This document shows, piece by piece, positions 1 to 38,643 of a stretch of 64,000 nt of DNA. Below the pieces are notes generated by a model. The model worked only from the letters and a program-made list of their open reading frames with translations. It was not told the origin of the DNA and did not search any database. This DNA is from Penicillium oxalicum (taxonomy: Eukaryota > Ascomycota > Eurotiomycetes > Eurotiales > Aspergillaceae). The position numbers were made by a program, and so were the translations under genes. The stretch's first letter is position 1, and every line of letters starts with the position of its first letter. The stretch lies in assembly GCF_001723175.1 (NCBI RefSeq), contig NC_064654.1, positions 62,001 to 126,000 of the forward strand. Direction: 5' to 3'.

Positions 1-10
1 GTGGTTCCAC
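1..10. promoter_or_regulatory. GTGGNNCCAC palindrome, NRPS promoter copy 1
   Basis: The sequence is GTGGTTCCAC, the first ten bases of the window. It lies 328 nt upstream of the inferred NRPS start codon. It has the same half-sites and spacing as five other copies placed upstream of cluster genes. A role as binding site for the bHLH regulator at 35551-36648 is inference. Confidence 0.5.
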
Positions 11-65
11 TTCTGGGTGTAGGTACCTTGCCTACCTACCGAGGTCTCCACACCTTGTAGTTACA

Positions 66-75
66 GTGGTACCAC
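66..75. promoter_or_regulatory. GTGGNNCCAC palindrome, NRPS promoter copy 2
   Basis: The sequence is GTGGTACCAC, a perfect 10-bp palindrome. It is the second copy in the NRPS promoter, about 263 nt upstream of the inferred ATG. The two copies are 65 bp apart, measured start to start. Confidence 0.5.
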
Positions 76-337
76 GCTCCACGACCAGAGCCTCGAGCCA
101 TGTTTTCCTTCGGGCTCAAAGACAGAAGGCTAAACATCCCTAAGGCTCAAGACAGATCCACAAAAGATACCATATTCTGGCAACATTTCGTGCAAGATAC
201 TCCCACTGTGCACATGCAAGACTGTGAAGGCCAAGTGTATCAAACATTGTGAACATTAGGTTCCCTTCAAGGTGAGTAGCCAACCCGCGTGGAAACCAAT
301 TGAGTTTAACTGAGTGAAACTCTTCTCAAAGTCGAAA

Positions 338-3300
338 ATGACTCTATCGAATGGTGCCGCTCCTCCTCCAAAGGAAAACCCGAATCCGGATGTTGTTTTG
401 AGCGGTGAAAGAGCGGGGACGAACGATCATCGATCCGAGGTAAGAGGCTTCCCTCATAATCAGTTGCACAGGTCAGCTTAGCAGAATCATAGAGCGCGCT
501 AAGACTTGAGGGCTCTCACTGGGCCAATATCGATCATGCCGCAGTGGAGCTCTTCGACCACGCCCTTACTAGTAGTAGCGATGGGTTGGTCTCGCTGGCA
601 GACTACGTTCACTACTTCAAAATCCCCGGAGTAAACCACTCTGCTCACCAAGCGTCGATTATCAGCGCAGCATGGGCAATTGTGATGAGCGAATATACCA
701 ACTCGAATGATGTGCTGTTTGGACAGCTGAAAGGGGGTAAAAACTCGCCACTCCGAGTGCTCCTGAAGCAAGATGATACCATTGAGAGCTTATTGCGTCG
801 GGTTGAGGAGAGTCGGACGATAACCCAGGTCACTGTAGCCGCGTCGCGGCGCAAGGTACAATGTGTCCTTGCATTCTATGGGCATGAGGAAATGGAGGCG
901 GGGCCATATCCTGGTCCGCTGAAGGACGAAGTGTTGCAGGTCAGCTTCATTCTTCATGCGAGCCTCGTCAACATCAAGGTGCTCTACAATGAGCTGTCTG
1001 TAGAGAGATCGAAGATCGAAAGGCTATTTCAGCAGCTAGGACATGTTCTCACCCAATTATACGAAAACCCGACGGAGACTGCCCTGGGGAAAGTGAGCAG
1101 CGTCACTGCAAAGGACATCAACGACATGAAGGAATGGAACATGCGTTCTCACAAATCCTATGTTCTGGATTCCATCAATGCGACTTTTGAACGGCAGGTG
1201 ATGGCTTCGCCTGATTCATGGGCTATCAATGCGTGGGACGGGAGTCTGACGTACGCTCAACTCTACAATCAGGCCAAATTACTGGCCAACTCCCTCTATG
1301 AGGCTGGAGTGCGGCCACACGATCTCGTACCTCTCGCATTCGACAAATCAGTATGGTTCACTATATCTGTTTTGGCAGTACTGAAGGTTGGAGCGGCTAT
1401 AGTCCCACTTGATCCTGACTGGCCAAGGGAGCGTCGGATGTACATCGTGGAGGATGCTGGAAGTCGCTTGGCTCTCACAAATGTGGCCAGATTCAAAGAG
1501 GAGCATCCGGGGCTTACGGTAATTGATGTCAGCAAGATGATATGGGCTCCGCAGACGGAGCCAAAAATCAACTTCGCGCACATTGTCACTCCCGCGCACG
1601 CCGCTTATGCTTTTTTTACTTCAGGTACAACTGGGCGGCCCAAGGGATGTATCATTGAACATGGCGCATTCGTGGCCTCGGCTTTAGAGCGGGCAAAGGT
1701 CCTCGTTCGTGATGAAAGCTCTCGTGTGCTTCAAGTGGCAACTCATACTTTTGATCCTGCAATGGAGGACATCCTGACCACACTCCTCGTTGGGGGCTGT
1801 GTCTGCGTTCCCAATAAGCAAGAATATTTGAACGACCTGAGGGGATCAATCTGCAAGTGCAATGCCAACACCTTGAACATTGCACCCAGCCTTATCCGGT
1901 CTCTGCGCCCGGAGCAGGTGCCCTCATTGAAAACTTTGATCCTGGGAGGCGAAAAGATGAGCGACCGGGTCTTGGAAACTTGGACAGGGGCAGTCTCGCT
2001 GTTTAACGCATACGGTCCTACGGAATGTTGCATCAAGAGCACAATCAACATTATGAGTGCCGGTGCAGATCCACGAAACATTGGCTATCCAGCCGGTTGC
2101 TCCATCTGGCTGACCCGGCCTTATGATCAAGATACACTGGCAGCTATCGGTACGGTCGGCGAGATTTTGATACAGGGCCCGAATCTTGCCCGTGAATATC
2201 TCAACCGACCGGAGCTAACCGCACAGTCGTTCCCCCGGAATCTGCGCTGGGCATCCCAAGCCGGACTGGGTAGCGACACACGATTCTACAAGACAGGGGA
2301 CCTGGCACGCTTCAATCCGGATGGCTCAATTTGTCTCCTTGGCAGAAGAGACAGCCAAGTCAAGATTCATGGACAACGTATCGAGCTGGGAGAAATTGAC
2401 CACCATCTGCGCCAGAGTTTCCCTGCTGAGACCGAAGCGATTGCCGGTGTGGTAACTTTCAAAGACCGCGAAACCTCATGTCTTGTGGCTTTTGTACAAA
2501 TGATGGACCAGCGCTCATCTCAGGCCAACCCAGGCAGTGATCTGGCACTTCTCGATGATCCTTCTCAGGTGCAGCAGCTGCAAACAAGTGCAATCGAACG
2601 ACTATCGAAAGTTCTGCCAGCTTACATGATCCCATTGGTGTTTTTGCCCGTCCAAAACTTCCTCTACTTCTCCAATGGCAAGACAAATCGAAAAGGCATG
2701 TGCGAACAAGCCGCTGATATGTCTTTGGGCACCATTTTAAAGAAGTTCGGGCGCGTCGGCCATGAGACCCATGACGATTCCTCGTGGTCTGCGGATGCGC
2801 TGGCTCTCCGCCAACTTTGGGCGACAGCACTTTGCCTAGATGCGAAGATGATCGCAGTCGACGACACCTTCTCTTCCTTGGGAGGCGATTCCTTGGCGGC
2901 TATTGAGCTAGCGCGCTTATGTCGAGCCCACAACGTCGATCTAACTGTTGACGACATCTTGCAATGCCCAACTATTCTTACTCAGTTGGAGAACAAGCAG
3001 GTCCGCCAAGTGAATAACGGGACTAATCAAATAGCCCCATTCGCGCTGTTGGAGATGGGTACAGATATAGGCAAGCTGCGCGAAGAGGTCTCGAAGCCGT
3101 GTCAAGTTGACGCTGCGACTATCGAGGACATCTACCCAGTCAGCCCAATGCAAGAGTCTCTAATGGCTCTTTCAATGGACATCAGTCCCTATATCTCGCA
3201 GTTTGTCTTTCGAATTGACAGAAATGTGAAATTGAACGATCTTCGAGCAGCATGGAAGATTGCTGCCCAGGACATTCCCATCTTGCGCACCAGAATTGTT

Positions 3301-6300
3301 CATACATCGGAACACGGAACCGTTCAGGTCGTGATTAACGAGGAGATTGAGTGGAGCAACCTGGAGAATATCGAAATAGCACATTTTTTGCTCAAAGACA
3401 AGGGGGATTCGATGCATCTGGGAGATCGTCTCAATCGTTTCACCGTCGTTCGGGAAGAAGAAGGACCCTCTTTCTTGGTCTGGACATGCCATCACGCTTG
3501 TCATGATGGCAGGACAGTCGATCAAGTTCTCGAATATGTCAACAGTCTGCGTTCTGGAGGTTCTATGCGGTCTTTCGCTCCCTTCAAGCAATTCATAGAG
3601 TTTCAGAAGAACCTCTCTCTGAGTGACTGGGAGACTTACTGGAAAAGAAGGCTGGCAGACGCTCCTGTATCATCCTTCCCGGGTGGTGATAGTGGAGTGC
3701 GACAGCCTCTCACCGATTCGTTGTATCGTCACTATTTTAAGTTGCCTCGGCGCAACGTTAAAGACTCTCTGACGTCTAGCTCTTCCAGTGCCACCGTTAT
3801 ACGCGCAGCTTGGGCGTTACTCGTTGCTCGATACGAAGGGTCGAACTGTGCAACCTTTGGCACTATCGTGGGAGGGAGCAGCTCACTTGTACCGAATTCG
3901 GACGCCATAGTTGGTCCCACCAACAACACAATTCCCATGAATATCTCAGTCCCTGAAGAATGGAGTGTCCAGAAATTCTTATCGCATGTTCGGGAGCATT
4001 TCGAATCATCTCCGTTCCAACATGTTGGACTGGCACAGCTGGGAGAGCTTTCGCCTAGTATCCGCGACATCACGCGGGTCAGGAACCTCCTGGTCTTGCA
4101 GAGGCCCTATGGTCATAGCGGTGATCAACTTGGCCTGGAGAGAATTCAAGTGTCCGCGCATGCAAATTTCAAATATCCCCTGGTGGTGGAATGCACCCTG
4201 GAAGTGGAGAATGGGCTTTCCGTTGCTTTCATGTTCGACTCGCACATCCTCGACGAAGTTCAGGTCTCGCGCTTAGCTGTACAGTTTGAGCGGCTTATCC
4301 AAGCCCTAAACACTGACTTCAAGATACCCCTGACGAATATCGACGTCCTCGGTCCTTCCGACATGGCTCAGATTCAGAAATGGCAGATAGAAGTCCCCCC
4401 CAGTGGATCTTTCAGTCTACCGCATTATATTCTAGAGAACGCCTTGGAGCGGCCGGACGCCCCTGCTCTGTGTTCCTGGGATGGGAATCTCACGTATGCC
4501 CAGCTTCAAAATCTTTCCTCTCGGCTGTCGTCCCATCTCATTCAAGCGGGCGTGCGAAGAGGAGACAATGTGCTGTGCCACTTCGAAAAGTCTGCCTGCG
4601 CCATAGTATGCATGCTAGCCGTACTGAAATGCGGTGCCGCGTCTATACCACTGGGACTCTCTTGGCCGCGGACCCGGTTGGAGGCAGTCTCATCGGTCGT
4701 CAAAGCCAAATTCGTCTTGTCGTCGCCCAAACCCTCCGGAGGCACAGTTGGCTTGGCCATGCATCATTTGGAGATCACAATGTCACTCATCCAGAGACTA
4801 CCAGATATTCGGGACTACGGGGTAGATGCGAGTCTACCATCCGATACCGCATTCATCATGTTCACCAGTGGAAGTACTGGGTCTCCAAAGGGTATTCCGC
4901 TCTGCCACGAGCAACTTGTGGCCAACTTGAACACGATCGTGCAGCACATGCGGTACACGCCGCAGTCCAGAACCTATCAGTTTTCCGACTTTGTTTTTGA
5001 CCTCTCGCTCAGCGATATCTTCGGTACATTCATGGCAGGGGGTTGCCTCTGTATGCCATCCGAGCAGGAGAGGCAACAAAGCCTGGCTGACTCAATGAAC
5101 CGTATGAGAATAAATGTAGTCGGCCTTACTCCTACGGTTGCCAAGCTCTTGACGCTATCCGATGTACCGACGCTGCGTTTCATGCTACTTGGGGGAGAAG
5201 GTCTATCAAAGGACGACCTCGAGAGATGGGCAGGTCACGTAGATGTGATCAATGCGTACGGTATGACGGAGAGCTGTATTGTTTCTACCAGCACAGATGT
5301 GCGTCGACCTGATAGCGACCCAAGAAACATTGGTCGAGCGATCAACTGTCTAGCTTGGATAACGGACGCAAATCATCCTCATCGTCTGGCACCCATCGGA
5401 ACTGTCGGCGAGCTCGTGGTACAGGGTCCTGGAGTTGCGTCTGGATATCTCAACAGGCCAGACGAATCAAAGCGCGTTTTTCTGGACACTCTTCCATGGA
5501 GCTTTGACAGAAACCGTGCTTACAGAACGGGAGATCTTGTAAAGTACGACGCGGATGGATCCATCATCTACATAGGCCGAAAGGATGCTCAGTTGAAAGT
5601 GCGCGGGCAACGTTTCGAAGCGGGAGAGGTCGAGGCTCAACTGAAAGATTGCGGTCTCCCCGGAGGTTTTTGCGTTGACATCGTCAAAGTTGTGTCGCCT
5701 GATGATCCGGAGGTTTCTGTTCCGATACTGGCCCTGTTTATCAGCCTCGAAGATGGATCGGCTGTGATGGCCTCTTCAGAGCCAGCAATCGCACGCCACG
5801 CGTACCAAGACACATCAACGGCCACAAATGTCTTGCAGACACTGCAGAAGTTGAAATCCCGCTTGCCGGACTACATGCACCCACAGGCCGTGGTTCCTAT
5901 CTCCCAAATGCCGGTTTCTGGAACAGGTAAGCTCGACCGCAAGGTGCTGAGAGCTCTGGTGGCGGATGTGTCGTACGCGGAGCTGCTTGGGTTTTCACCT
6001 CAGCCAGATAAAGGGGCAGCCTCGGAACGAAAAACTCTAGACAGTGAGGCTCAAAGAACGATTGCTATGCTCTGGTCTCAAGTCCTTCCAGTCGGGGAGT
6101 CCCATGTCTTTCATGGCGGTGACGACTTTTTTCAACTTGGCGGACATTCCATCACACTGATGCGTCTCACGTCCCTTGCAAAGAAACATGGCGTCTTGAT
6201 CAACTTCGCTGAAGCCTTCTTGCGTCCCACGCTTGCCGCTATGGCCGAGTGTGCTCACTCGGGATGGAGTCAGGACAAGATAGTGCATCCTAAAATACCG

Positions 6301-9300
6301 CCATTCTCAATGACAGGGAGTCAGACAGAGAGCATTTTACAGGAAGCCGCTATCACTTGTCGTCTCGATCCAGCAGAGATCGTGGACATATATCCGAGCA
6401 CACCTCTGCAGGAGGGTTTGATGACCCTCTCGCTATCGAAGCCGGGCCTTTACACAGCACAGTTTGCATGGTCTCTCCCAGAATCCTTGGACCTGAATCT
6501 CTTTGAGGCTGCCTGGGAATCTTTGGCCAAACTAAACGCCTTGCTCAGGACTCGACTGATTTATTCAACTGGATACTGGCAGGTAGTCAGCAAGAATATG
6601 AGACCTTGGACCACCGCCCAGTCAAGCCTGCATTCTTACATTGAACATGAGAAAGCACATTCAATGGGCCTGGGGGAGCCGCTCAGTCGAATGGCCATCG
6701 TGCGTGATACTGTCTCAGCCACTACGTACTTCGTGTGGACATGCCATCACAGCCTATACGATGGTCATTCCATGCAAGCTATCCAAGAATGGATCAGTGC
6801 GTTCTACCTCAAGGCTAGAGAATTGCCAATCGTGCCATTCAAAATCTTTGTGGATCACATTTCCAAGAATACGCAGTCTGAAGCCAGTCTGAACTTCTGG
6901 AAGGAAACATTGAACGACTGTCCCAAACCATCCTTCCCGGCTCTACCCTCCAATGACTACCAACAATCGGCTGGCGTAATCCTGAAAGTTGAGGCCAGCC
7001 TTCCTCAAGAGCAGCGTCGAGATGTGACCTTAGCATCAGCAATACAAGCTGCGTGGGCGATACTGCTTGCAAAGTACGAGGGCTCAGAGGACGTTCTATT
7101 CGGAATGACGCTTGGGGGTCGAAGCACAGACATGCCAGAGATTGAGAAGGTCATGGGACCGACGCTTTGCACCGTTCCTGTGCGGCTGAGGCCAAGCCCA
7201 GACCGAGATGTGACTTCCTTCCTGAAAGCCGTCCAGGAGTTGTATTTGCACTCGGCACTCCATGGTCAGACTGGGCTGGCCAGAATTAGCAAACTCAGTG
7301 CGGACGCAGACAGCGTCTTGAAGATTCGAAGCTTGCTCATCATCCACGAACCACTCTCCACCGAGCTGCAAGGGCTTGAAAAACTTGGGTGCATCAGGGT
7401 GAAAACCGATGTCAAGGACTTTGTATCTTATGCGCTCGTCATCGAGTGCATTCCGGTTCCCGCAAGCAATCGACTTAAATTAAAGATCAGCTACGACAAA
7501 GGTGTATTGAGAGATACGGATGCTCACCATCTGGCACTGCAGATCGAGTTTGTCCTGCAACAACTGTTGGGCGAGGCCTGCAACAAGTTGAAGGATATCT
7601 GCACTGTGAGCCCGATTGACATGCAAACCCTGGCAAATTGGAACAGAGAACTGCCCAAACCTGTAGAAAGCACTATTCAGGACTTGTTTGCAAACCAGGC
7701 TGCTCGACAACCAGACTCTCCCGCCATCTGCTCCTGGGACGGAGAAATGACATATAAAGAATTAGACAGCCACACCACCCGGCTTGCACGCCAAATTGTC
7801 TCATGTGGTGTTGGAGAAGGGGATCTGGTCCCCATATGTTTCAGGAAGAGCATGTGGACAGTGGTCGCCATGTTGGCCGTTTTGAAGGCAGGAGGTGGTT
7901 GCGTCTGCCTTGATCCTAATCATCCTTCTGACTATCATCAGGGGATTCTCAGTCGGATTGGGGCAAAACTGATCATTATTGGCTCTGGGCAACTGTCTAT
8001 GTTCAAACAGATCCCGACCATCGGGGTAGATGCAGTTTCGGTAAACAACATGGCTGACTCTTCAGCAAAACTTCCGCCCGTGAAGCCTAGCCAGGTGGCT
8101 TTCGTGGTATTCACCAGCGGAACGACTGGACAACCCAAAGGAATCTTATTGGAGCATCTCGCGTTGTGCACGAGCATCCTGGCGCATGGCCGGTTCATGA
8201 GATTTGGACCTCGCTCCCGTGTGCTGCAATTCGCGTCGTACACATTCGACGTGAGTATTGCCGACATATTCACCACTCTCGTCTTTGGTGGTTGTGTTTG
8301 CGTTCCCTCAGATCATGACAGGATGAACAACCTTTCCGGGGCAATGAATGCTTTGAAGGTGAACCATGCCTACCTAACGTCATCTGTCGCGGCAATGCTT
8401 GACCCGGATGGGCTCCAGAACCCACTGAACGTATTGGCTGTTGGTGGGGAGCAGGTAGGACACGACGTTCTCCAAACATGGGCCACTCGTACGAACCTTA
8501 TCAACATGTACGGACCGGCCGAGACAACCATCTGGTGTGGAGGCAAGGATAGCGTGGGATTCAGCGACAGTCCGCTCGATATCGGACGGGGTGTGGGCGC
8601 CAGAATGTGGCTGACGGACCCCAACGACCCCCAACAGCTGGCCCCTATTGGTGCCGTGGGGGAAATTTTAGTGGAAGGGCCGCTGTTGGCGCGTGGATAC
8701 CTGGATGACCCGTCTCGCACATCCGCCGCCTTCGCCGACATGCCGAGGTGGGCGAAATCACTGAACAGCATTGATGGCTTTGAGTCTATCACTGGGCGAC
8801 TATATCGCAGCGGTGATCTGGGCAAGTACCAGCCGGATGGTAGCATTCTCATCTTTGGTCGGCGCGATACGCAACTCAAAATTCGAGGTCAACGCGTCGA
8901 GTTGTCCGAAATTGAGAACCAGCTGCACTCCATCATTCAGGACCACCGATGCGTGGTCGATGTGTACACAACGCCAGATGGACAACCTAGTCTTGTTGCC
9001 TTTATTGGACTCGGTTCAAACGTTCAAGATGGCGAGAAGGCCAAAAGCATGGCTTGCATTGCCTCCGATTGCGAGATTCCCACGGGATTGGCGAATCTGG
9101 TCGATGGCCTCCAGTCACGGCTAGCCAAGGTTCTGCCCCCATACATGGTGCCAGCACAGTACTTGGTCCTGAGAGAAATGCCATTACTCGTATCTGGTAA
9201 AACTGATCGCAAGACTCTGCGACGTCTCGCCTCGAGCCACTTCAGAGAAGCCCCGAAGCAAGCCGCACCAATGGCAGCCCAGCAGAAGCAGATTCCTGTG

Positions 9301-12300
9301 ACCGATATGGAGTGGAACTTGTTCAGCTTGTGGACCCAAGTTTTGGGTATCAGCAATCTTGGTTCTTTGGGAACAGACGACAACTTCTTCAGATGTGGTG
9401 GTGATTCCTTGAAAGCCATGCGGATGGTCTCCTTGGCCGCTCAACGAGGTGTTCAAGTGAAGGTGGCCGATGTTTTCAAACACCCAGTAATGGCAGATCT
9501 TGCCAAGGCTCTGACTAAGGATGCTTGCACAAACGAAGAACCCGCTAGAACCTCAGTGCTTGACGCTCTCGAACCGTTTGCCATGCTGGACGAATCGGCG
9601 AGAGACGAGATCACAGAGCAAGCATCAAAAGACTGTGACATTCCCGTGACGCGCATTGAGGACATATACCCCTGCACTCAGCTTCAGAATGGACTTTTTG
9701 CCCTGTCACAAAAGCAACCGGGAACTTACGTTGCTCAATTTGGCTTCCTAGTGGGGAAGTCGCTCAGTATCCCTCGCCTTCGCGAGGCATGGGATACAGT
9801 GTGCCGTCAAACTCCGGTGTTGCGAAGTAGACTTTGGTCAACACCGTCCGGGCTCTTGCAGGTTGTTCTCGACGAGGATTTTACATGGTTCGATCGGTCT
9901 GACGTTGACACGACAGCCGAACTGTCTCAGGACAAAGCTGCAGTCGGTGGATCGGGGCGTCCCTTCCAGCGTTTCCGCGTCTGTCATGACGCTACGACGG
10001 GTGACACGAAGCTTTTCTGGACCATTCATCATTCCGCCTACGACGGCTGGTCTCTCCAGCGTGTGCTTGAATATGTTCAATTGGCGTACCGAGATCAGCT
10101 CAAGCCATTAGCTTCTACATCTTTCAGCCGTTTCGTCCAGTATGCGAACAGCATCGTTGAGAGCGACGAAGCGAGGGGGTTTTGGAAAAGACGACTGGCC
10201 AACGCCCCGTCACCGACCTTCCCAGCTCTTCCAGAAACAAATTATCGCCCAGTTGCCGATTCCATTGTCAGCATGGAAGTTGGGAATGTGAAAACTCCTG
10301 CGTTTGTGACCCTTGCGACACTTCTCCGAGCGGCATGGGCCATGGTTGTCGGCGCGTACGAGACTTCATATGACGTAGTGTTCATGAGCACTGTTTCCGG
10401 GCGAAGTGCTCCTCTTAAAGGCATCGAAACTGTGATGGGCCCGACCATTGCCACAATTCCCGTTCGAGTGGATTTCAGCGATCGGAAAAAGAACGTCGCT
10501 GAACTTCTGCAAGTCTTACAGGACGCTGCCGCAGAGGAGATTGCTTTTCAGCAGGTTGGACTGCAGTCTATCCGCAGGATTAGCGGAGACTGTGAGAAAT
10601 CTTGCAATGCTCGCAACCTATTGGTCATACAGACCGACGATGTTTCGCAGAAGGGCGTGACTCTAGAAGATTTTGAGAAGCTTCCCGAGAACTCCAGGGA
10701 CTTCTCGACCTTCCCCTTCACGCTTGAGTGTTCGATTAAGGAGAAGAATCAAGTTTTCGTGGAGGCAACTTTCGATTCACGGGTGATAAACTTCACCCAG
10801 GTACATCGAATCCTCAGGCTATTCCAGCACGTTACGCTCCAGCTTTGTCAGACCGACGCAGCGCTTTGCGACATCGAAGTCATCAGCCCATCGGATCTGA
10901 ATGAAATTCGCTCCTGGAATCCGACAATGCCAGCCGCCAAAGAGGCGTGCATCCATCACGAACTCGAACGCCTGGCAAGGCTGCATCCTGATAGGGAAGC
11001 CATTTGCTCTTGGGATGGCAGTCTGACATTCCGGGAACTCGATTCGCTTAGTGAACGTTATGCTGGGTACCTTCAGTCGCAGGGTGTGAAAGTCGAGAGC
11101 TTTGTTCCGATCTGCTTCGATAAATCCAAGTGGGCTATTGTAGCCATGGTGGCGATTATGAAGGCAGGTGGTGCTTGGGCTCCTATCGACCCCAGACATC
11201 CACAAGAACGACGTGACGGTGTTTTTTCTGCGCTGAGTTCATCGCTTGTTGTCACTTCAGCGATGCATGCCCAACTCTTCAGCATACACACGTCCCTGGC
11301 ATTATCCGTGCACATTTTAGACGAGACAGCGCTTGAAAAAATCCCCCGATCGCTTTCCCTCAACAAACCAGTCGTTCTGCCGAGCAATGCAGTGTTCCTC
11401 GTTTTCACCAGTGGCAGCACAGGCGTCCCTAAAGCAATAGTGGATGAACACCGGGGTATTTGCACAGGTGCACACGCACTCGGTGGTCTCATAGGGTTTG
11501 GGCCGAAAACACGGTTCTGGCAGTTCGCTGCCTATACATTCGACCAGAGCTTTGGCGATATCTTCCACGTTCTTTTGCGCGGCGGATGTGTTTGCATTCC
11601 CTCCGAATCAGATCGACAGAACGACTTGGCCGGCTCTATCTGCAGGTTGCGAGCAAACACGACCATCTTGACTCCCACGGTAGCATGTTCCATCAACCCT
11701 GCTGACCTTGGGTCACATAGAATGGAATCGATGGTTCTGGGAGGCGAGCCCATGACGGTTGAGACTATTCGGACCTGGGCACCGAACTCTCAAATGTACC
11801 ACACGTATGGACCGACAGAGTGTAGTGTGATTTCTATTGGACGGACCTTTGGCATGCAGAACATCAGCCTGCCGGGAAACATTGGACAAGGGCTCGGGGC
11901 CTTGATCTGGCTGACGGATCCAAGTGATCCTGACCGCTTGGCCCCTATCGGTGCCGTGGGCGAGATTCTTATCGAGGGACCTTTGCTTAGTCGAGGATAT
12001 CTCAACAACCCCGAGTTGACCAACGCTGCATACATCAGAGACCCCAAGTGGTCCCGCAGTCTCCACGTGCCTGGCGCCACAGGCTCTCGCCGCTTCTACC
12101 GAACGGGGGACTTGGGACAATACGATACCGATGGCACCATCATTTGCCTTGGCAGACGAGATGGCCAGGTCAAGTTGCGTGGTCAGAGAGTTGAGCTTGG
12201 CGAAATCGAGCACCACATTTCCATCTACGCCAAGTCTCAAGTTACGGTCGCGGCGGATGTTCACACCTGGCCCGGTGGTGCATCCATGTTAGTGGCCTGC

Positions 12301-25751: not shown

Positions 25752-25761
25752 GTGGTGCCAC
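25752..25761. promoter_or_regulatory. GTGGNNCCAC palindrome in divergent promoter
   Basis: The sequence is GTGGTGCCAC. It lies 145 nt upstream of the hydrolase ATG (minus strand) and 68 nt upstream of the GliT-like ATG (plus strand), so one site could serve both genes. It is the only copy in this 221-bp divergent promoter. Confidence 0.55.
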
Positions 25762-25828: not shown

Positions 25829-26918
25829 ATGCAAATCGCCAATTCTGATCCATACGAGGCAGGCAAGATGCAGGAAATCACGGATGCTTTCATCGTGGGC
25901 GGCGGACCAGCTGGCCTCGGGGCCGCTTTGGGACTCTGTCGCCAGAACCACAGCGTCGTCCTGTTCGACAGCGCCTCCTACCGCAACAGTAGCAGCAATG
26001 TGTCTGACCTGCGGATGCACATGGTGCTCACGTGGGACCATCAGCGCCCGGACGATTTCCGGGCGGCAGCACGATCCGAGCTGCAGCGGTACGAACGGTT
26101 CCAATATGTGCCGGCCGAAGTGCGGTCTGTCCAGCAGACGATGCGCACCGTCAGCGGTGGACGGTCGGAATTGGTGTTCGTGGCGGTGTTGGCGGATGGG
26201 AAGGAATGGATAGCGCGTAAAGTCATCCTGGCCACCGGGGTCAAGGATATCTTCCCGAAGATTGAGGGTTTCGCCGAGTCTTGGGCCAGGGGGATGTAAG
26301 TCATGGATCCATACCCTGCAAAGGATTCTGAAACCGACGTTTCACAGTGAACTGACGCCATCCTCCAGTTTCCATTGTCTTTTCTGCCATGGGTTCGAAG
26401 AGCGGAATGCCGAGTCCGTCGGCGTCCTAGCGGTGGATGAGTGCGCCGATATGCCCACAGCTCTACGGATCGCCCGCGCGGCCCATCAGTTTTCAGAGTC
26501 GGTCACCATCTACACCAATGGGAACGCACAGCTCGGCGCCAGGCTTGCCCAGAAGGTCGCAAAGGACAAATGGTGTAGGGTCAACAAACTCAGCATCAAG
26601 CGACTTGTCGCGCTGGAGACGACAGCTTCTTCCCCGGCTGCGATGGAACTTGAGTTTACGGATGGGACAGTACAGAAGGAGCATTTCATTGTTCATAAAC
26701 CTCGAACGCAGCAAGCGAGCGCGATCCCGGCACAGCTCGGCCTGGAAATGACACCGGATGCGGACATCAAAGTCGTCGGTATGATGTTCGAGACGTCTAT
26801 GCATGGTGTGTTTGCGGTTGGTGACTGCGCCTCTCCGCACAAGTTCGTGAGTTATGCGACCATTGCGGGAGGGTTCGCCGCTGCGGGAGCTGCCACTCAG
26901 TTGCAGGCAGGGTATTAG
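25829..26918 (+). CDS. GliT-like FAD-dependent dithiol oxidoreductase
   Basis: This is a thioredoxin-reductase-like flavoprotein of about 338 aa, the size of the gliotoxin oxidase GliT. Exon 1 is 25829-26295 and exon 2 is 26369-26918, split by a 73-nt GT-AG intron with matching phase. Near the N-terminus is the FAD-binding motif GGGPAG, followed by a YRN segment typical of the family. The redox pair CLFC (about residues 159-162) follows directly after the splice site. GDCASPHKFV, near residue 304, is the second FAD motif. A second possible start lies at 25868, just before the FAD motif. Family members form or reduce disulfides in metabolites, but some clusters without sulfur chemistry also have one. 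No glutathione transferase or other sulfur-handling gene is visible here, so the substrate is open. Confidence 0.88.
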
Positions 26919-27191: not shown

Positions 27192-28336
27192 CTATGCTTG
27201 AGTATGATTGTACTGATGGAGCAACCGAGACTGGTTATAGTCCCCAGCAGTAATGTGCGGATACAAACATGGCCGCTCATCGCTGAGGAATGCAGGGAAG
27301 GGAGACAGAGATGCATCCCGGTTGGGCTTCCCAAAGAAGGCAATAGAGTACCGGGCAGGGAGAATCGCCTCGTCATCATCCGATTGCCTCATTGGTTTGA
27401 CAACCCGATGCACGACAGCCTTGAGACTGGCATTGGTCCACCTCTGGAGCGAGTCACCAATGTTGACAATCATGGTTGGAGATGCATCAAGGATCGGGAT
27501 GAACTCCGGACCAGTCGTCTGGTTTTGGACCTCCAGTCCTCCAATCGTGTCCTGAAAGAGCAGTGTGATGGTTCCGTAGTCAGTGTGCTCTGCAATTCGA
27601 AGCTTCTTCCCGTTCTCGATGAGTTTGGCTGGCACGGCGACATAATGCGTCAAACGGAGCTCGTGGGCCTTGGCGCTGTGAAGAGCGACAATGTCTTCTG
27701 TGCTAATGCCCATCACCTGCATCAACATGACCATGATTTCAGTCATGGTCTCGTGGCAGGTTTCGAAGAATTGTTCCATTGTATTGCGGAATCCGGGCAG
27801 ATCCTCTTCTCGCGGCCATCGATTTGCGTTGGAACAGTCGGTGGGAGTGCCTATATCGAATGACTCCTGTCGGGAATATTCAGTGACTTCATCTTCATTA
27901 AAACAACGTAAGCGGGCTAGAACACCAACTTTGTGGTCATCCACACGGGTTGTGAGATCATCCGTGCCATTCTTCAGCCCATAGGTTCTCTCCAACCCAA
28001 GGCGTGCATAACCCCGGTGCGGATTGGCACCTTCTGGGTGTTTCGCCACAGCCTTGGCCTCGGGGCTAAGACCATAGAATCTCTTACTCTGCTCACGGTC
28101 ATCAATATGAATCTTCCTGCTGAATCAACGAGAAGGGGACCTGCCATATTGAAAGCTTCGGTGATCATGGCTTCGGGGATACCATGATTAACGATCTTGG
28201 CAACCCCATACGAGCTGAGGCTATTGAGGAGTTCCTGCGCAAGTTGACGCCTAGCTTGGGTATCGGACAAGCCATTCTGTTTTGCCTCATACAGGAGCGA
28301 AAAGTCTAACCGAGGAATTTCGGGAAGACCAGCCAT
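27192..28336 (-). CDS. 2-oxoglutarate/Fe(II) dioxygenase (isopenicillin N synthase-like)
   Basis: This gene encodes a non-heme iron oxygenase of about 346 aa. The inferred exons on the minus strand are 28336-28130, 28088-27930 and 27866-27192. The N-terminal exon has the DIOX_N pattern, with SSYGVAKIVNHGIPE. The metal ligands are H216 and D218 (EHTDYG) and H275 (VVHRVV). The 2-oxoglutarate-binding Arg/Ser pair is at about 294 and 296 (RYSIAFF). The 63-nt intron is well supported: without it an extra 21 residues interrupt the family's HKESFDIG region. The first intron (41 nt) is short and its exact borders are less certain. Family members hydroxylate, desaturate or cyclise; here a hydroxylation of an amino acid or acyl chain is plausible but unproved. 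Two GTGGNNCCAC sites sit 129 and 176 nt upstream. Confidence 0.87.
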
Positions 28337-28464: not shown

Positions 28465-28474
28465 GTGGTGCCAC
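28465..28474. promoter_or_regulatory. GTGGNNCCAC palindrome, dioxygenase promoter copy 1
   Basis: The sequence is GTGGTGCCAC, identical to the copy in the hydrolase/oxidoreductase promoter. It is 129 nt upstream of the dioxygenase ATG. Confidence 0.55.
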
Positions 28475-28511
28475 TGACCTGAAATCCTACAGATATAATA
28501 ACCACCTAACA

Positions 28512-28521
28512 GTGGCGCCAC
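28512..28521. promoter_or_regulatory. GTGGNNCCAC palindrome, dioxygenase promoter copy 2
   Basis: The sequence is GTGGCGCCAC, identical to the copy upstream of FAS beta. It is 176 nt upstream of the dioxygenase ATG and 47 nt from copy 1. Confidence 0.55.
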
Positions 28522-29458: not shown

Positions 29459-32400
29459 TCATAACCTCGCGAGGGGATCTAACATAATTGCCGATTCATT
29501 CCTTTCTCCCCATGGCGGCAAATCCTTGACATCGCAGATTGTCTGCATTGCCACAGCCTTTGCCCATGCTTGCGAGGCTCTCTTTTGTCTCTCTCTAACC
29601 CGGATACAATAATTCTGGTATTCCTCTTCAGTCGCCGCCGCAAACATATATCGCGGATGCACCCCCAAAGCCTGGGCTCCCTTCTGCCCAAACCCAAACG
29701 CGGTAACTGAGAATGCCTTCAGTCCGCGCTTGTATAGAGTCCGGCTGGGATAAAACAACGATTTTCGGTTCCGCAGTCGCTCGTCAATGTTATCCGCGTT
29801 GCGCTGGCCTGGAATCAGACCCGAGTTGAGGGTCTGCAGACAGCCATTGAGCATCCAGGCGGCTGCCGCTCCCTTGGAATGCCCGGTGAGGTATTTTTGG
29901 AAGATACAGTAGAGCAAGTGTCCTTCCTCGCGACCCAGATGGGCCAGCTGTTTCTGAATCACGTCCGTCTCATTCAAGTCGTTGCGCACAGTCGATGTGC
30001 CATGGAAGGAAGCAAAGTCTAGGTCGTTGATTGTCAGTCCCCACACAGCGAGTGATCCCCGGATGGGAGAAATGCTCGACTCGCCGTGCCAGAACTGGTG
30101 GCCGAAGGTGGCAAGAGCCTCTTTGTGCTGCCGTGTGGCCTCGCTAGCGATCCAGTGTCGCCGTTCATCGGCCAGAAGTTTTCGTTCGACGTTGTCTCCT
30201 GTGGCTTCGTCTTGCTGGCAGGCATCGTTTTCGGAGTCTTCCCAGTCGCGGATCTGCCGCAGCCGCTGCTCAAGCCGGCGCCGTCGGTATGAAATGTTTA
30301 GCAGTGGCGTTTGCACCGCACCATGACTGGTCTCACGCGCTTGGGTCAGGAGACCTTGCCCTGGTGCAGGAATGGAACGGCCCGCCTTGTCGCTGGCTGT
30401 ACTTGCCCATGCAATGACGCCGTGTACCGGCAGGCCCATATCAAGGGCAAGCCGGGCAGTGGTGAGGATCTGGACACCGGCACCATGTGCTTCGACAAAA
30501 CCATCACGAGTTGAGCTAGTGGGGCGTGATGCTTCTGCAGGTGTGCGGGCCTGTGCCTGTTCCTTGGCCGGATTCGAGGTCGCGCCCATGTTGGCAAACT
30601 CGACAGCAATATCGTGTTCCAGGTCGTCAACGCCTCCAACCAGACATACCTTGGCTTTACCCGTGGAGATCAGCTCATAACCGGATTCAAGTGACTCCAG
30701 GGATGTGGCACAGGCACCGACAGGGGTACGCAGAGGTCCCGAACTCGACATCAGCAGCATATTGACCCAGGCGGGAGCCGTGTTCAGGAAGGTCTCCTGG
30801 AGTACGTCCGAGGCAACGGGAAGGTCATGGTGACGCGTGCGGAAGACCCGTTTAATGGCGTTCAGAGGTCCCTCGCCGGACCCGATGCAGTTACCTAGCT
30901 CCGAAACATGGATGTAGCGGTAGAGCTCGTATGCGTCAGTCAGGCCGCTGGAAAATAGGGCTTCCGCGACACAGACAAGCGTGAACAGTGTGACTCGATC
31001 GACCAGCGAGATGATCTCATCTGATAAACCGTACGTCTTTGGATTCCAGCCTGTTGGGATCTGCCCGGCGACGGCGTGGGCAGCTGGTAAACCCTTGGGA
31101 ATCAGGATGGTGGCCCCTTTCTTGAGACGGATACGCACATCCTCCTCCTCGTCTCCACGATTCTTGGTGTTGGCAGGGTAGAAGATGTCAGCGTGATCAC
31201 CATGCTCGGCCTGGAAATGCTGCGCAAGCTCTTTTGACATCGTAATGAGAGGCATATCCTCTGTCAAGATCACCTCCTGTAGCAGCCGGCGGCGCGTGGG
31301 GTCAGATCCCCAGCCAATGTCCAGCTCCGGCTCCACAAGACGAATTCCCGTATGCGCCAGGATGCGCTGCTCGTAGCGACTTTTGACCTCAATGTCAGCC
31401 ACAGGTTCGCCCGTGATTGCGTCTGTCCATCCATTGTAGTATTTCCCGTCCACATCGCCTGCAGTGTGCCGGATCATCCCCATTAGCCACGCCATTTCGA
31501 TGCAGCCTTCCAGACTGAACCGCCCTTCTGCCTCCATCTCCCATCGTGTCCGCGCACTGCCATATGGTCCCAGTTCTGCAATACCAGTAACCACCACGAT
31601 GCGGTCGAGATCAACCATCCCACGCAGATTGGCCGCAAGTGGACGAATCTCCGTCTCATAGTCTGGGAGTTCGGGGAACTGCAGCTGCAGGTTGGCTAGA
31701 GGTGGCGGCACAGGACCTCGGTCGTTATCAACTGCGGTATTCACACCATCATCCAGCCTTTGATCCTCCAGAACAGCCTTCCGAGCGGCACTCGCCTGCT
31801 GCATTTCCTCTCTTAGCGCCACCAGTTTATCCTGGAGACTGGGTTGCTGATCCAGCCCCCCAGTTAAATCTGCGTACACCACAGCAGTCTCACATCGCTC
31901 TGCAACCGGTGCGGCCATGAGCAACAGCAGGCGTAGTGCCATCTCCTTGACTCCGAATGTGCGAATCCCCATCTTCTCTATCCCCTCAGCGACGAGATCG
32001 TTGACCTTCATTAAGCCTGTGCCCCGTGTCCATCCGATCGACGCCCCACAAATAGAGAGATACGCCCCCCAGCTTTCAGACGACCATTTTGTGAATAGGG
32101 GCTCCAATCCAATCTTTGACTCTGCGTATAGACCATCACCACCAAAGACGCCGTGGTTCGGTGACAAAGGCAGGAGAACCTGAGTGATGTTCGCGCTGAA
32201 TCCGCGCTTCCGCTTCTGCTGCGCGACCTGGCCAAGCAGCCGAAGCACGTTGACCAGCATCATGCGATGCGCTAGTTCAGCACGAGCGTCAATACCATCG
32301 ACCTCACGGCCCGCTACAGACATGGCGGCAAATGGGATGATGTGATCGAGATCCAGCCCGAGCGTGTCATAGACCCAGTCCACAAGAGCATGCACATCCT

Positions 32401-34304
32401 GCTGGCTAGCCTGATTAAATGAGACGACATGCAGCTGAGCCCCGCGCGCGCCGTGTGAAACATACAAGTCACGGAAAAAGGAAATCGTCTCCGGGATGAA
32501 GCGGTTAGTCGTGACGATAACGTGGGCGCCACCGACCAGAAGGCCGGGCAGGATCTCGGACCCAATTGAGCCGCGGCTGGCCCCAATTAGGAGGACGACC
32601 TTGGAGGCAAATGAAGGAGTTTCAGCAGTGCTATTGCTTGCATCCTCGAGATTCTGTGCAAAATTGGCAGTGAGATGCTCGTCAACAACCCAGCCCTGGC
32701 CGTGTTTCACGCTGAGCGTGATGCGGTGATCTCCGCTGTTCGCCGTGCGAAGGACCTCGCGGTATTCAATATCCCCGTTAAGTTTGACGATGGTGCGAGG
32801 CGCTGTTAACCGCTCACACACATGGAGCGCAAAGGGCTGAATTGTTGGAGGACATTCCAAGTCAGAGCTGGAGGTCATCAACGCTTTCAGAAACGCCGCT
32901 GCGGCATCGACGTTTCCCTCAAATACTCCGTCGAGAACCTGGCGATGCAGGTACTCTACGACACTGAATAGCCGGGGGCAGGCACGATTGACGATGAGCC
33001 GCGCCTGATAGCATGTCCATGGATCGTCGATCCCAGCTCTGCCCTGGAAGATTTTACCCAAAGTGTCATGGAGATCCTGGATACTCCAATTCCAGTACGA
33101 GTCGTAGTGGCGGACGTGGGATGCCGACCACTGTGGCTGCACGCCTGCGATCAGCTCGTCGCCCAACTCGGCCACGATCGAATCGATTTCTCCCTGTAGG
33201 GTGGCGATGCGCTTATCACGTTCGAGGTCGGCATCAGTGTTTGAAAAGAGCTCAATCGCCGACAAGTGTTGAGGCTCTGGCTCCTGCTGCTGGAGCGCCT
33301 GGGTACCTGGGGATGCAGCAACCGCAGGAGGTGGATCAATGGCCCGAGTGGAGGCAGTCAGCCCCTTTTTATCAAGATATGGCTGCACAATTCCATCCAA
33401 AAGTGACTGGGCCTCACCCGGCGTGGTCAATCGTTGCGCTGGTAGCTTGCTGCTTGCTAAAAGGAGGATCGCGTCCTGGCGCCCAGGGCCAAGCCCCCAG
33501 CGGCGCTCCAGGTATGCGCGAATCTGGGCCGTGCGGAAGCTTGAAGGCATTTTCAGCGAAACCATCTTGGAGACCATGGCCGCCGATGTACGGCGCAGCT
33601 GTCCCGAAAATACCGGCGAAACCTGCAGCCTGTCGCAGAGGGTTTGAACCTGAATTCCTTCCGAGTCCTCAGGCAGACTTCCAAACTCACGCTCCAAGTC
33701 GCCAATGATTTCGTTCTGCATGGTCGACCGGCCGCCGCAGAGCTGCTTGACAGATTTGCACAGGTCGTCGGGCACGAGCATACGGTCAAGCTTGTGTGAG
33801 ATAATTGCGAGGACAATTTCTTGGGCAGAAGTGGAAGCATCTGGGATGCTCGCTAGAATGGGAGCCTCCGCATCTGTCGCAGGAGGGGAAGAAGGCAGCA
33901 GAGGCGCCACTCGAGGTGAGAGAGACTGTGGCGCCTCAACGGTCTCTATCTTGAGATCTGTTGTGAGAGTGAGTCCGCGATGTATGTCGGCTGCATGATC
34001 GCGGTAGCTGAGCAGCTTTCTCCGTACACCCAACGCACTGTCGTGGATCACGTAGTCCTCATTCTTCAGAGTGCGCCTCAGCATGTTGATCAGTGTGCTA
34101 ACCGGGCCCACCTCGAGCAGGTTCTGGATTTTGAGGTCCTTGAGCAAAACATCCTGCGTCTGGATCCATTTCACCGGCGACGCGAACTGGTATCTACAGA
34201 GATTGCTTAGTTATGGTAATGCAACGTATAATATCACAGACCACCTACGCCAGTAGCTCGATGAGCAGCAAATAGGTGAGTTCTCGTTCAATGTCGGGGT
34301 GCAT
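29459..34304 (-). CDS. Secondary-metabolism fatty acid synthase, alpha subunit
   Basis: This is a fungal type I FAS alpha subunit of about 1596 aa. Exon 1 (34304-34249) encodes 18 residues plus two bases. A 55-nt intron (34248-34194) follows, then exon 2 (34193-29459). The splice restores the family's ELLAYQFASPVKW sequence. Regions in order: the N-terminal MPT-completing segment; ACP with phosphopantetheine Ser at about 175 (GGRSTMQNEI); ketoreductase with LIGASRGSIG near 551; ketosynthase with Cys near 1178 (GACATS) and His in HGTST (about 1416) and TGHSKG (about 1456). The protein ends about 140 residues after that last motif. The roughly 250-aa C-terminal phosphopantetheinyl transferase of primary-metabolism FAS alpha (usually about 1850 aa) is therefore absent. 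The partner is the FAS beta gene at 38785. Together they probably make a short acyl chain for the NRPS product. Confidence 0.95.
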
Positions 34305-34832: not shown

Positions 34833-34846
34833 GGTGGTTAGCCACC
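34833..34846. promoter_or_regulatory. GGTGG-N4-CCACC inverted repeat
   Basis: The sequence GGTGGTTAGCCACC has the half-sites of the cluster palindrome, with four bases between GTGG and CCAC instead of two. It is about 530 nt upstream of the FAS alpha ATG. It is weaker as a candidate site because of the different spacing. Confidence 0.25.
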
Positions 34847-35184: not shown

Positions 35185-35195
35185 GGTGGCCCACC
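35185..35195. promoter_or_regulatory. GGTGG-C-CCACC inverted repeat
   Basis: The sequence GGTGGCCCACC has one base between GTGG and CCAC. It lies between the bHLH gene's 3' end and the FAS alpha promoter. It could be a variant site or chance. Confidence 0.2.
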
Positions 35196-35550
35196 AGATT
35201 CCCGCAATTCTACGCTATTGACCGACCACATATCAACGACGCGACTGTCAACCACTGGTTGGCGATGTCAAAACCTAGGCAAACCCAGCCTATGGGTTGA
35301 AATCTCGACCTTTGACCCAAACCTAATTGCACGCTACCATCTAGCCACGTCTTCTCAAGCACAGTACCTTAGACTGGATCTTCAACGTGGCCAGTGGTGG
35401 GGGACGGTAAAAATCTTGGCTCGACGAATATAAGCATTTAAATAAAAACGGCCCTCAAGAGGCGAGGTGGGGGTATTATTGTGGCTTTCAAGGAGAGATC
35501 TATCAACTTCTGCCATGTATTTACATTAAGCCAAAGTTCTTACACGCCCT

Positions 35551-36648
35551 CTAGCCCTGCTGCAATGCCTGTTTGGTCGCTCGAAATCGCCGAATCAGCA
35601 GCTTCATATGTTCCATCACAACCTCGTTCTCCTCCTGTAGTAGCTTGATATAGGCCACTGCTTCGCACAGCACCTCCGACTTGTTGAGTCGTGTTGCGCC
35701 ACGGCTCGCATCTTTGCTGGTCCAATCCGTGGTTGTGTCTAGCGAGAGGGGTAAACTGGACTGCTGTTGTCCTTTTTGTAGCTGGTCGTGCTTCCAGCTC
35801 TCCACACAGTCTCGTAAGGCTTCAAACCGCTCATGAAGCCCTGCCCGGTACCTTTTCTCAATTACATAGTGTGCACGCTGGTGCTTTAACGGCCGTGGTC
35901 GAGAGTTCTTCACTGGCGACTGTCGCTCGACGGCCGAGGGGAGTTGTGAGGGTGATTGCATCGAGGTCTCTTCAATAGGTGGCAGGGCCACGGGGCTCGT
36001 CAGGGGAGTTTGTGCGATAATATCGACGCTGCTGTTTCCGACGCTGCTGTTTCCGACGCTGCTGTTTCCGACGCTGCTGTTACTAATGCTCATACTGGTG
36101 CTGGTACCGGCACTACTGCTGGGGTCGACCTCCACTGAATTCAGCATGATGTCCCAATCGTTGGAGATCCATGCAAATTCTGCAACAGGCTCACGTCAGT
36201 ATGAGTTTGGATCAGACAATAGTGCAGTCTCATACCTGCTGTACTTACCTGATGTGGAATCGTAGCTCATTGGGTCCGCTTGAAGGCTGTTAGACGGGCT
36301 AGGGCGAGAATAGACATCGCCAATCCAGCTCTGCACGGGGTTGGCAGGGGGTTTCCCGCTCTCCAAAGGAAAGGGGGACTCAGTACATAGGGCAGGGTCG
36401 ATAGGCGTCTCATTGATGCCTGAGGGAAGGTCGTTTAGCGCATAAGCTGGTTGATACGTGGCTTGCGGTGTGGAAGTCTGAGTGTTTTCAATGTCGACGG
36501 CAGTCATCCACTGGGTGCCTGCCCGTAAGATTTCCGGATCGATATGATCATTGGCCATTAGAATGCGCAGGGCAGACGCCATGCGATCTCGTCGCGTCGG
36601 CTGAGATGCAGACGGAGATGAAGGGTTGGTAGTGTAGGACATGGACAT
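35551..36648 (-). CDS. SREBP-type bHLH transcription factor
   Basis: This is a basic helix-loop-helix regulator of about 342 aa. Exons are 36648-36249 and 36179-35551, split by a 69-nt intron (36180-36248) with a good gtaag donor and cag acceptor. The basic region RAHYVIEKRYR (about 235-245) has the H/E/R E-box contacts. Position 244 is tyrosine, the SREBP-type residue that widens recognition to NCCAC half-sites. Helix 1 and a second helix (NKSEVL..AVAYIKLL) follow, separated by a long polar loop. A leucine-rich coiled tail ends the protein. The N-terminal half is low-complexity (Ser/Pro/Thr) and includes a GNSSV repeat encoded by a 15-bp tandem repeat. There is no membrane segment, unlike true SREBPs. 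It sits between the two FAS genes and is the likely pathway-specific activator. Confidence 0.9.
36025..36084. repeat. 15-bp tandem repeat in the bHLH gene
   Basis: Three exact copies of GACGCTGCTGTTTCC are followed by a fourth with a diverged end (36070-36084). They encode repeated Gly-Asn-Ser-Ser-Val units in the low-complexity part of the regulator, on the minus strand. Copy number may vary between strains. Confidence 0.85.
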
Positions 36649-37813
36649 GGTGCTGAGGATCTTGGTGGCTAGTTTTGATAGAGGTTATCCTCATGGCAAC
36701 AGACTTGTCTGTCACCTAGAAGATATATATTGATATCGACTCACAGCAGGCATTTGGCTGTCGACAGGTGCAAGGTTACATCTTGGGTCGGCTACAGAAG
36801 CAAGATCCTTCGTAAGCAACCGAAGTGTGGGATGTGCACATCTGCAGGAATTGGCTCCGGACTAGTTGCAGCTAGGGCAGTTTTAAATGGACCCACGTTT
36901 GGATAATTGGACCGCCTCCTCTCTCTAATAGGGTTTAGACTTTATCACCGCACATATTGAAGAGGGGTAAGTGCGCAGGGCAGCCCAATCACATCAGGGA
37001 ATTCGAGGCATAAGGAATCAGACAACCCCCACAGAGAGCGTCCTCGCCGGTCAGCCGGAAGTGTAGGACCGCGCGGTCGCAGCAGACGTTTCACCTCATA
37101 AACACAATGACTCAAGAGAACTTAAAAAGAAAAAAGATCGATAGAGGAGATGTGGAGAATGCATTTGTTAATTGACATGATGAAGAAATAGTCCAATGGA
37201 TAACCACAGCAGGAATAACAATCATGGTCACTGAAAAACAACATTGGGAAATGCATAAATGATCATAGATCCTTTAAAATTGGCCTTCTGCCGTCTCTTC
37301 TCCATACCCACCCCTGCTAGACCATCCTCCTACATGCAACCGGATCTGCTATTAGAATATGTAAATTCGGGTATTATCTAATATAGGATAACAAAACTCC
37401 ACATTCATGTTCTGGGTCCGCCTTTGAATACCAATTGATAGGTGGTGTGAAGGCCTGCGAGGTTCTGTGAGGCGAGGAGTCAGAGTGAAAGGATTGGTAG
37501 AGTACAGTATGAGTACATTCCAAAAATAATCGCTGAAGCTTCCAAGTCCGTCTCTCCTGTCCCTCCCTTACCTGTTGTGGGTCACGGGACCATCCTGTGT
37601 AGGCTTGCCTAGGTAGTTTTCCAGGAGTGTCTTGTAACACGTAGGGTCCAGCGAAGGTAGTTACACAATGAACTCCAGCTTACAAGGATAAAAATTTGTC
37701 TCTAGATTTACTGCAAGTAGCATTCACAGATCGACTTCATGGATCAGCAGCCTACGTAAACATACTACGACTTACCACCATCGATGTAGGTAGGCTACAC
37801 CCACAGGCCCCTT

Positions 37814-37821
37814 ATCACGTG
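37814..37821. promoter_or_regulatory. E-box ATCACGTG
   Basis: ATCACGTG contains the CACGTG E-box core, with the AT flank favoured by SREBP-type bHLH proteins. It is about 970 nt upstream of FAS beta and 1.2 kb upstream of the bHLH gene. It might let the regulator act on its own promoter. A single hexamer core is weak evidence. Confidence 0.25.
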
Positions 37822-37987
37822 GATACCTTATTTTCTATGAATCTAGTCCAATCTGTTCAAATTGAGATCACAACGCAGTCCAACTAGCATATATCCTCGA
37901 AATGTATAAACTTCGAATAGCTATAATGACAGAGCCTAGTGCCAGGACTGATGACTGCCCGTCCTGCTGGAGGGATTCGAATCTAGA

Positions 37988-38156
37988 CCTTGCAATTAAT
38001 CGTGGCGGGTCGGCTTTTTGGACCCGACGCGCGAGCCGGAGGCTCGCGAGTATTCGACCCGTACGGTATTGTAAGATCTGGCCGATACTCTATTCATCCA
38101 TATAGCCAGCCGGTTCGCGAGTCCGCGGGCCGAAAAACCGGCGAGTAATTGCGAGG
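37988..38156. mobile_element. MITE-like inverted-repeat element
   Basis: A 169-bp segment is bounded by CCTTGCAATTAATCG at the left and CGAGTAATTGCGAGG at the right. As inverted repeats these match at 13 of 15 positions. The interior has further GC-rich inverted stretches and no coding frame. No clear target-site duplication was found. A non-autonomous DNA transposon remnant is the simplest reading. Confidence 0.4.
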
Positions 38157-38633
38157 CCTAGCCCAGGGCTTTAAAAAACACGTTGGGCGTATTAGGTGCA
38201 TTCTGAGTGTTGAAAATGATGAGGCTATTCCCAAGCGCGCAATACATTAGAATATTCGTAAGAAGACCTAATAATCGCGCAAAACGGGGCTCATAGTCTG
38301 TAAGGAGTAGCCTAAGTGGTAGGTGAAAAGAAATAACGAGAGATGATGATAGTTAGATTGATTGGGATCGAGACATATGATGCTATCTATTCTTGTGGAT
38401 CATGTGACTACATAGCAGGCATGATATTGTCTGGCAAACATTGGTAAGCCGGTCTCCCAAGGTAGACCTCTGCAAAAGAAGTAGGCACCCAAACTGACTC
38501 CCATCCCATCGCTAAATGGGATGGGTTTGGGCATAAAAAATATGCTCATAGGTAGGCGAGTATGCTGTCATTGAAAAAATTTTTATACCCGTGGGTATTT
38601 GATTGAACCTCCAACATTTCTTGGTCAACAGGA

Positions 38634-38643
38634 GTGGCGCCAC
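38634..38643. promoter_or_regulatory. GTGGNNCCAC palindrome, FAS beta promoter
   Basis: The sequence is GTGGCGCCAC, the same as the second dioxygenase site. It is 142 nt upstream of the FAS beta ATG, a distance similar to that of the sites before the dioxygenase. Confidence 0.55.

Follow-up and report, generated by a model that had tools for sequence, protein, structure and literature searches.

The 64,000-nucleotide stretch of Penicillium oxalicum DNA analyzed here (the window, C5:62001-126000 in a genome of 30.77 Mb) carries a gene cluster homologous to the gramillin cluster of Fusarium, and a 10-bp palindrome, GTGGNNCCAC, recurs in the promoters of its genes. We consider it likely that this palindrome is the cis-element by which the cluster's own GRA2-type basic helix-loop-helix (bHLH) regulator turns on the gramillin-like lipopeptide genes together with an ATP-binding cassette (ABC) exporter. 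The cluster genes within the window are listed below, with start codons taken from our own models, each of which was checked for an ATG.

338..24024, plus strand: seven-module nonribosomal peptide synthetase (NRPS), GRA1 homologue; Pfam matches to 7 AMP-binding, 7 Condensation and 7 PP-binding domains (two pieces).
24825..25607, minus strand: alpha/beta hydrolase; Abhydrolase_6, 3.9e-16; start codon at 25607, 3' end provisional.
25868..26918, plus strand: thioredoxin-reductase-like flavin adenine dinucleotide (FAD) oxidoreductase with one intron; Pyr_redox_2.
27192..28336, minus strand: 2-oxoglutarate/Fe(II) dioxygenase; 2OG-FeII_Oxy, 1.2e-17; exon structure provisional.
29459..34304, minus strand: fatty acid synthase (FAS) alpha subunit, with ATG 34304 opening its first exon; Fas_alpha_ACP, 5.3e-51.
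35551..36648, minus strand: bHLH regulator of the sterol regulatory element-binding protein (SREBP) type, GRA2 homologue, with one intron; HLH, 1.5e-8.
38785..44296, plus strand: FAS beta subunit; Fas1-AflB-like_hel (2.2e-139), SAT, MaoC and Acyl_transf_1; 3' end provisional.

The palindrome is present in the window as exactly six perfect copies, with starts at 1, 66, 25752, 28465, 28512 and 38634, all of them intergenic in the gene models made in this analysis. These are the six places given in the original prediction, and a seventh perfect copy at C5:60303 (window -1697), 1.7 kb beyond the window edge and 217 bp before an ABC transporter gene, raises the count to seven. The copies within the window, and one imperfect copy, are as follows.

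1..10: GTGGTTCCAC, NRPS promoter, distal member of a tandem pair, 328 bp before ATG 338.
66..75: GTGGTACCAC, NRPS promoter, proximal, 263 bp before the NRPS ATG.
25752..25761: GTGGTGCCAC, divergent promoter, 145 bp to the hydrolase start and 107 bp to the oxidoreductase start.
28465..28474: GTGGTGCCAC, dioxygenase promoter, proximal, 129 bp upstream.
28512..28521: GTGGCGCCAC, dioxygenase promoter, distal, 176 bp upstream.
36887..36896: ATGGACCCAC, one-mismatch copy, bHLH promoter, 239 bp upstream of ATG 36648.
38634..38643: GTGGCGCCAC, FAS beta promoter, 142 bp upstream of ATG 38785.

The distance from site to assigned start is 107 to 328 bp for all seven perfect copies, all of which fall inside the 2,940 bp lying no more than 400 bp upstream of the eight cluster starts; use of an ATG at 25829, upstream of and in frame with the assigned oxidoreductase start, would cut the site distance of this gene from 107 to about 67 bp. 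The earlier description of the copies as intergenic and near start codons thus holds. Five promoter regions carry perfect copies: those of the NRPS, hydrolase/oxidoreductase (shared), dioxygenase and FAS beta genes, as had been proposed, and now also that of the ABC transporter, which lies beyond the window, completes the gene set and is newly added to the cluster here through the palindrome. A partial-looking alpha/beta hydrolase open reading frame (ORF) lies between the transporter and NRPS genes, at C5:61179-61577. The first palindrome copy is overlapped by a canonical E-box, CACGTG (window -2 to 10, C5:61998-62010; CACGTGGTTCCAC), so that two bHLH-type sites have bases in common before the NRPS gene. 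The one-mismatch copy ATGGACCCAC is at most a weak candidate for a self-regulation site in the bHLH promoter; one-mismatch copies are scattered and common, many of them within NRPS coding DNA, and were therefore given no weight. Two others, GAGGCGCCAC and GTGGCGCCTC, stand in mirror order 27 bp apart in the FAS alpha coding sequence (window 33901-33937), possibly by chance.

The grouping of perfect copies was compared with several backgrounds. In 100 dinucleotide shuffles of the window the mean was 1.00 copies and the maximum 4, so six copies were reached in none of them, and the genome-wide count of 367 corresponds to 0.76 per 64 kb; the original prediction had put the chance expectation at about one copy per 64 kb. 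All seven perfect copies found in C5:1-175000 lie within C5:60303-100643, a stretch of 40.3 kb for which 0.48 copies were expected (Poisson P(>=7) = 7.8e-7, rising to about 0.004 when roughly corrected for a scan of the whole genome; the ends of the stretch are set by the sites themselves). A genome-wide count had been put forward as a check. It gave 360 copies elsewhere in the genome, and the cluster stretch is the densest among the 172 copies of the 367 for which places were listed, namely all those with one of the four kinds of centre that the cluster copies have (CG 26, TG/CA 62, TA 25 and TT/AA 59). Among these 172, the cluster stretch holds 7 and the next-densest 40.3-kb stretch 3 (C3:3617695, 3620264 and 3631218). 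The neighbors of the latter group, read with a 2-kb gap, are of housekeeping type (proteasome, actin, lysine-decarboxylase-like, Sld7 and purine-synthesis domains), and its first copy is close to the 5' end of the lysine-decarboxylase-like open frame; we take this group to be background, although this is not proved. Another group of three perfect copies is found at C1:1381076-1385265.

The grouping depended on the spacing of the two half-sites. GTGG-N2-CCAC occurs 7 times in the 41-kb cluster and 0 times in the remaining 134 kb, whereas the ten other spacers (0-1 and 3-10), summed, occur 13 times in the cluster and 15 times in the remaining 134 kb, and grouping in the cluster was seen only for the 2-base spacer. 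In a blind search for 4+4 dyads in seven promoter regions, GTGG..CCAC ranked first, with occurrences in 5 of the 7 regions and none in 128 kb of background. Tandem arrangement was likewise rare: the dioxygenase pair (28465-28474 with 28512-28521) is the only pair in the genome with a gap of 20 to 50, a class in which a reversed, non-palindromic control pattern had none, and the NRPS pair (1-10 with 66-75) is the only one with a gap of 50 to 80. The expectation was 0.27 pairs (P = 0.03), with gap ranges that were picked after the pairs had been seen. The centres of the seven copies are TG/CA in 3, CG in 2, TA in 1 and TT in 1, and a pyrimidine-purine centre is present in 6 of these 7 versus 107 of the 360 others (P = 0.004, noticed post hoc).

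The palindrome itself is already known, because it has been published as GTGGtgCCAC for F. graminearum cluster C02, with credit there to Gardiner et al. 2009 (PMC4198257), and C02, which has been tied to NPS8 and gramillins (PMC10512235), is gramillin's cluster. The Fusarium side of the comparison rests on the published table. The text of that study gives the motif for 12 genes (4% of promoters genome-wide, P = 6.8e-13), its Table 4 has 11 rows with the motif, ten with a TG and one with a TA centre, and the motif stands before genes for FAS beta, FAS alpha, a multidrug-resistance-type transporter and a flavonol-synthase-like protein (PMC4198257). Co-expression of the C02 genes is also published: agmatine induces 11 of the 12 motif genes, and all 12 are lowered in the FGP1 mutant (PMC4198257). 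In the parts of the paper covered, no motif is given for FGSG_11657 or FGSG_11658 and no binding factor is named for the palindrome (PMC4198257). A search of literature text, mostly outside subscription journals, for GTGGNNCCAC, for GTGGTGCCAC with Fusarium and for TGGNNCCA, with other centre spellings outside its scope, returned no paper linking the palindrome to a factor; text matches besides the C02 study were oligos, primers and a genotype string. One of FGSG_11657 and FGSG_11658 is presumably GRA2.

The same 10-bp palindrome is thus present in both fungi in promoters that include those of FAS beta, transporter and dioxygenase or flavonol-synthase-like genes, and both clusters have a GRA1-like seven-module NRPS and a GRA2-type bHLH gene. 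GRA1 has seven A and seven C domains (PMC10967133), and Gra2 is described, in the sources covered, as regulator of gramillin synthesis. Residues 2001-3500 of the P. oxalicum NRPS showed 52 to 55% identity to four proteins from Fusarium (one of which its source names gra1, another being an unnamed F. graminearum protein), 83% to a protein of Aspergillus turcosus and 100% to POX_e06164. A query with the second exon of the oxidoreductase gave 53 to 61% identity to proteins from Fusarium, with the name thioredoxin reductase given to two among the first nine, and its closest relatives are from P. oxalicum 114-2, A. turcosus and Fusarium. The likeness of the FAS alpha/beta, transporter and dioxygenase genes to those of C02 is at the level of Pfam domains. 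The clusters also differ: the P. oxalicum NRPS promoter has two copies, whereas Table 4 has none for the Fusarium NRPS gene FGSG_15673 (PMC4198257); the centres here are TG/CA 3, CG 2, TA 1 and TT 1, as against TG 10 and TA 1 in the Fusarium table; and a highly reducing polyketide synthase (HR-PKS) group adjoins the P. oxalicum cluster. Genes for the branched-chain aminotransferase and cytochrome P450 (P450) of the Fusarium list were not seen among the ORFs scanned, in a scan that was partial and made exon by exon. Relatives of the NRPS are patchy, with one in Aspergillus (83%), four of Fusarium type (52 to 55%) and the rest below 40%; horizontal transfer or repeated loss is a possible cause.

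We then considered the protein that might read this site. The cluster bHLH protein has 35% identity to Transcription factor gra2 of F. graminearum over 94% of the query and 98% identity to PDE_02136 of P. oxalicum 114-2. Only its HLH domain was matched by Pfam, and its best matches among sequences of solved structures were TYE7 (1.4e-4), HMS1 (3.4e-4) and SREBP-1A (4.6e-4). Its basic region, HYVIEKRYR, has Tyr in place of Arg, and the pattern His-Tyr-x-x-Glu-Lys-[Arg/Lys]-Tyr-Arg is present in 21 of 21 aligned GRA2 relatives (from 23 matches, two of which were left unaligned), versus His-Asn in the five SREBPs compared (two of this genome and three solved). The genome has 11 HLH loci, of which a regular expression assigned 4 to the Tyr form and 2 to the Arg form, the remaining 5 being unassigned by pattern. 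GRA2-family proteins also have in common an N-terminal helical segment (residues 11-50, block mean predicted local distance difference test score [pLDDT] 78 to 89, window 36241-36648). No match to a Zn2Cys6 pattern was found in C5:1-175000, in a scan that intron-split motifs would escape.

In SREBPs, the first helix has Tyr instead of Arg, the sites bound by fungal members are of the TCANNTGA or TCANNCCA type, and some fungal members are without transmembrane domains, according to the portions of the source covered (PMC6329520). The cluster protein resembles the SREBP-type bHLH proteins (SREBP-1a, SrbA, Hms1, Tye7 and Cph2) in the basic-region Tyr and the HLH domain, and the site resembles theirs in its CCA half-site and 2-base centre; the differences are that the site here is TGGNNCCA where the known sites, in those portions, are TCANNTGA or TCANNCCA (PMC6329520) and that His-Tyr stands in place of His-Asn. 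TGG-NN-CCA can be read as two opposed SREBP CCA half-sites in the same register and with the same 2-base centre, which would make it the combination remaining after TCA-NN-TGA (the E-box) and TCA-NN-CCA (the sterol element). In this model a homodimer of the cluster bHLH protein would bind the palindrome, the pairing of sites in the NRPS and dioxygenase promoters may strengthen activation, and His-Tyr instead of His-Asn is a candidate cause of the changed site reading. TCANNCCA and E-box forms were few in the 800 bp of 13 promoters. Given the SREBP-type basic region, binding of the palindrome by the bHLH protein is plausible. It is close to an even call whether the GRA2 family forms a third DNA-reading class of SREBP-type bHLH proteins, in which both monomers would act in the CCA mode on a symmetric TGG-NN-CCA, with His-Tyr as candidate cause and with factor, site and lipopeptide cluster kept together from Penicillium to Fusarium.

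A number of observations weigh against the palindrome being the operator of this bHLH protein. It is not rare as such, because there are 367 genomic copies and the reversed control is commoner still (569), and with 360 perfect copies elsewhere its specificity is therefore not explained by sequence alone. The reversed control has 2 tandem pairs in the gap class of 50 to 80. Direct repeats were mildly in excess in the cluster relative to the remaining 134 kb at spacer 3 (6 versus 5, uncorrected P = 0.025) and at spacer 10 (6 versus 6, uncorrected P = 0.041), excesses that come from 33 classes counted and do not survive that number. Promoter scans found no perfect copy before the FAS alpha or bHLH genes, and the Fusarium FAS alpha promoter, by contrast, has one copy in the part of the C02 report covered. 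The main text of PMC6329520 is without the strings CCAC, GTGG or TGGNN, so that no binding to this form is reported there, and a search by fold with the modelled bHLH protein (mean pLDDT 58.5) gave no match. A second GRA2-like bHLH gene at C6:2513522-2514136, which matches POX_f08117 and has 67% identity to the cluster protein, has no group of palindromes around it; C6:2493001-2543000 contains one perfect copy (2500351), within an open frame. If this gene governs the PKS-NRPS/P450 group near it, the palindrome is not its means, a mild argument against the proposed link. The C6 gene adjoins Helitron and Pol-type transposon genes, with P450, major facilitator superfamily (MFS) and PKS-NRPS genes within about 10 to 20 kb; the PKS-NRPS and P450 genes begin 10 to 16 kb away, the PKS-NRPS gene at about 16 kb. 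Given these genes in the outer stretches, it does not look like an orphan.

These points bear differently on the alternatives. That the copies are a by-product of chance or base composition is the least probable of them: the 367 genomic copies, fewer than those of the reversed control, and the approximately one copy expected in the window would allow it, but it is opposed by how tightly the copies cluster, by their place in promoters, by the spacer and by the match with Fusarium, and the independent Fusarium report already contradicts it. It is only slightly less improbable that general SREBPs, encoded by the Tyr-type bHLH genes at C2:4137876 or C7:2310294, bind the sites and thereby tie the cluster to oxygen or sterol state. 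Both genes have the Tyr basic region and, in the part of the source covered, CCAC(T/C) forms the end of the A. fumigatus SrbA motif, yet as a whole that chromatin immunoprecipitation motif, (A/G)TCA(T/C/G)(C/G)CCAC(T/C), is asymmetric (PMC4223079). Moreover, both genes have His-Asn where the 21 aligned GRA2 relatives have His-Tyr. The most serious competitor, still unlikely in our judgment, is that the cluster does have the palindrome as a genuine operator but that a different factor reads it. This could be a C2H2 zinc-finger protein whose core site is GTGG/CCAC, or a broad regulator of many clusters, with the bHLH protein acting elsewhere or as a partner. That CCAC serves other yeast factors, as in library oligos named Cbf1_n_Met31 that carry it (PMC1488866, in part), would fit this, as would the lower expression of C02 motif genes in the FGP1 mutant and the description of FGSG_11654 in C02 as related to a nitrate assimilation regulatory protein (PMC4198257, in the parts covered), the bHLH promoter without a perfect copy and the second GRA2-like gene without a palindrome group. 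The core of the Met31 site is CCAC. Against another factor stand the presence of a GRA2-type gene in the cluster, GRA2 being the named regulator of the Fusarium cluster in the sources covered; the register and 2-base centre, which fit the SREBP half-site rules (PMC6329520, in part); and the partial ORF scan, in which no further regulator was seen near the cluster.

Reading of the palindrome by the cluster's own GRA2-type protein remains the explanation we prefer, and the palindrome is real and very probably functional. Its standing as an operator is supported by the clustering, the promoter position, the spacer and the same published palindrome in the homologous Fusarium cluster. The further statement of the original prediction, that it defines the cluster, is too strong, because no perfect copy stands in the promoter of FAS alpha or of the bHLH gene, the genome has 360 copies outside the cluster and no palindrome group accompanies the other GRA2-like gene.

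On the other side of the cluster, window 46358-61510 carries genes for a fatty-acid desaturase, a fatty-acid hydroxylase, an HR-PKS with a methyltransferase domain and a flavin monooxygenase, which may be a separate cluster. No perfect palindrome was found from window 38644 to C5:175000, in keeping with the earlier claim that promoters on the PKS side are without it, and the palindrome thus leaves the PKS group out of the lipopeptide cluster, a boundary that is new here. Also new are the conservation of the palindrome in Penicillium, the inclusion of the ABC transporter and a half-site model of how the palindrome would be read. Taken together, these results place a known Fusarium cluster operator in the homologous cluster of a distant fungus, Penicillium, and they point to a specific protein as candidate reader, with the half-sites as rationale. 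Counting palindromes near GRA2 homologues would be a simple means to find and bound such clusters elsewhere.

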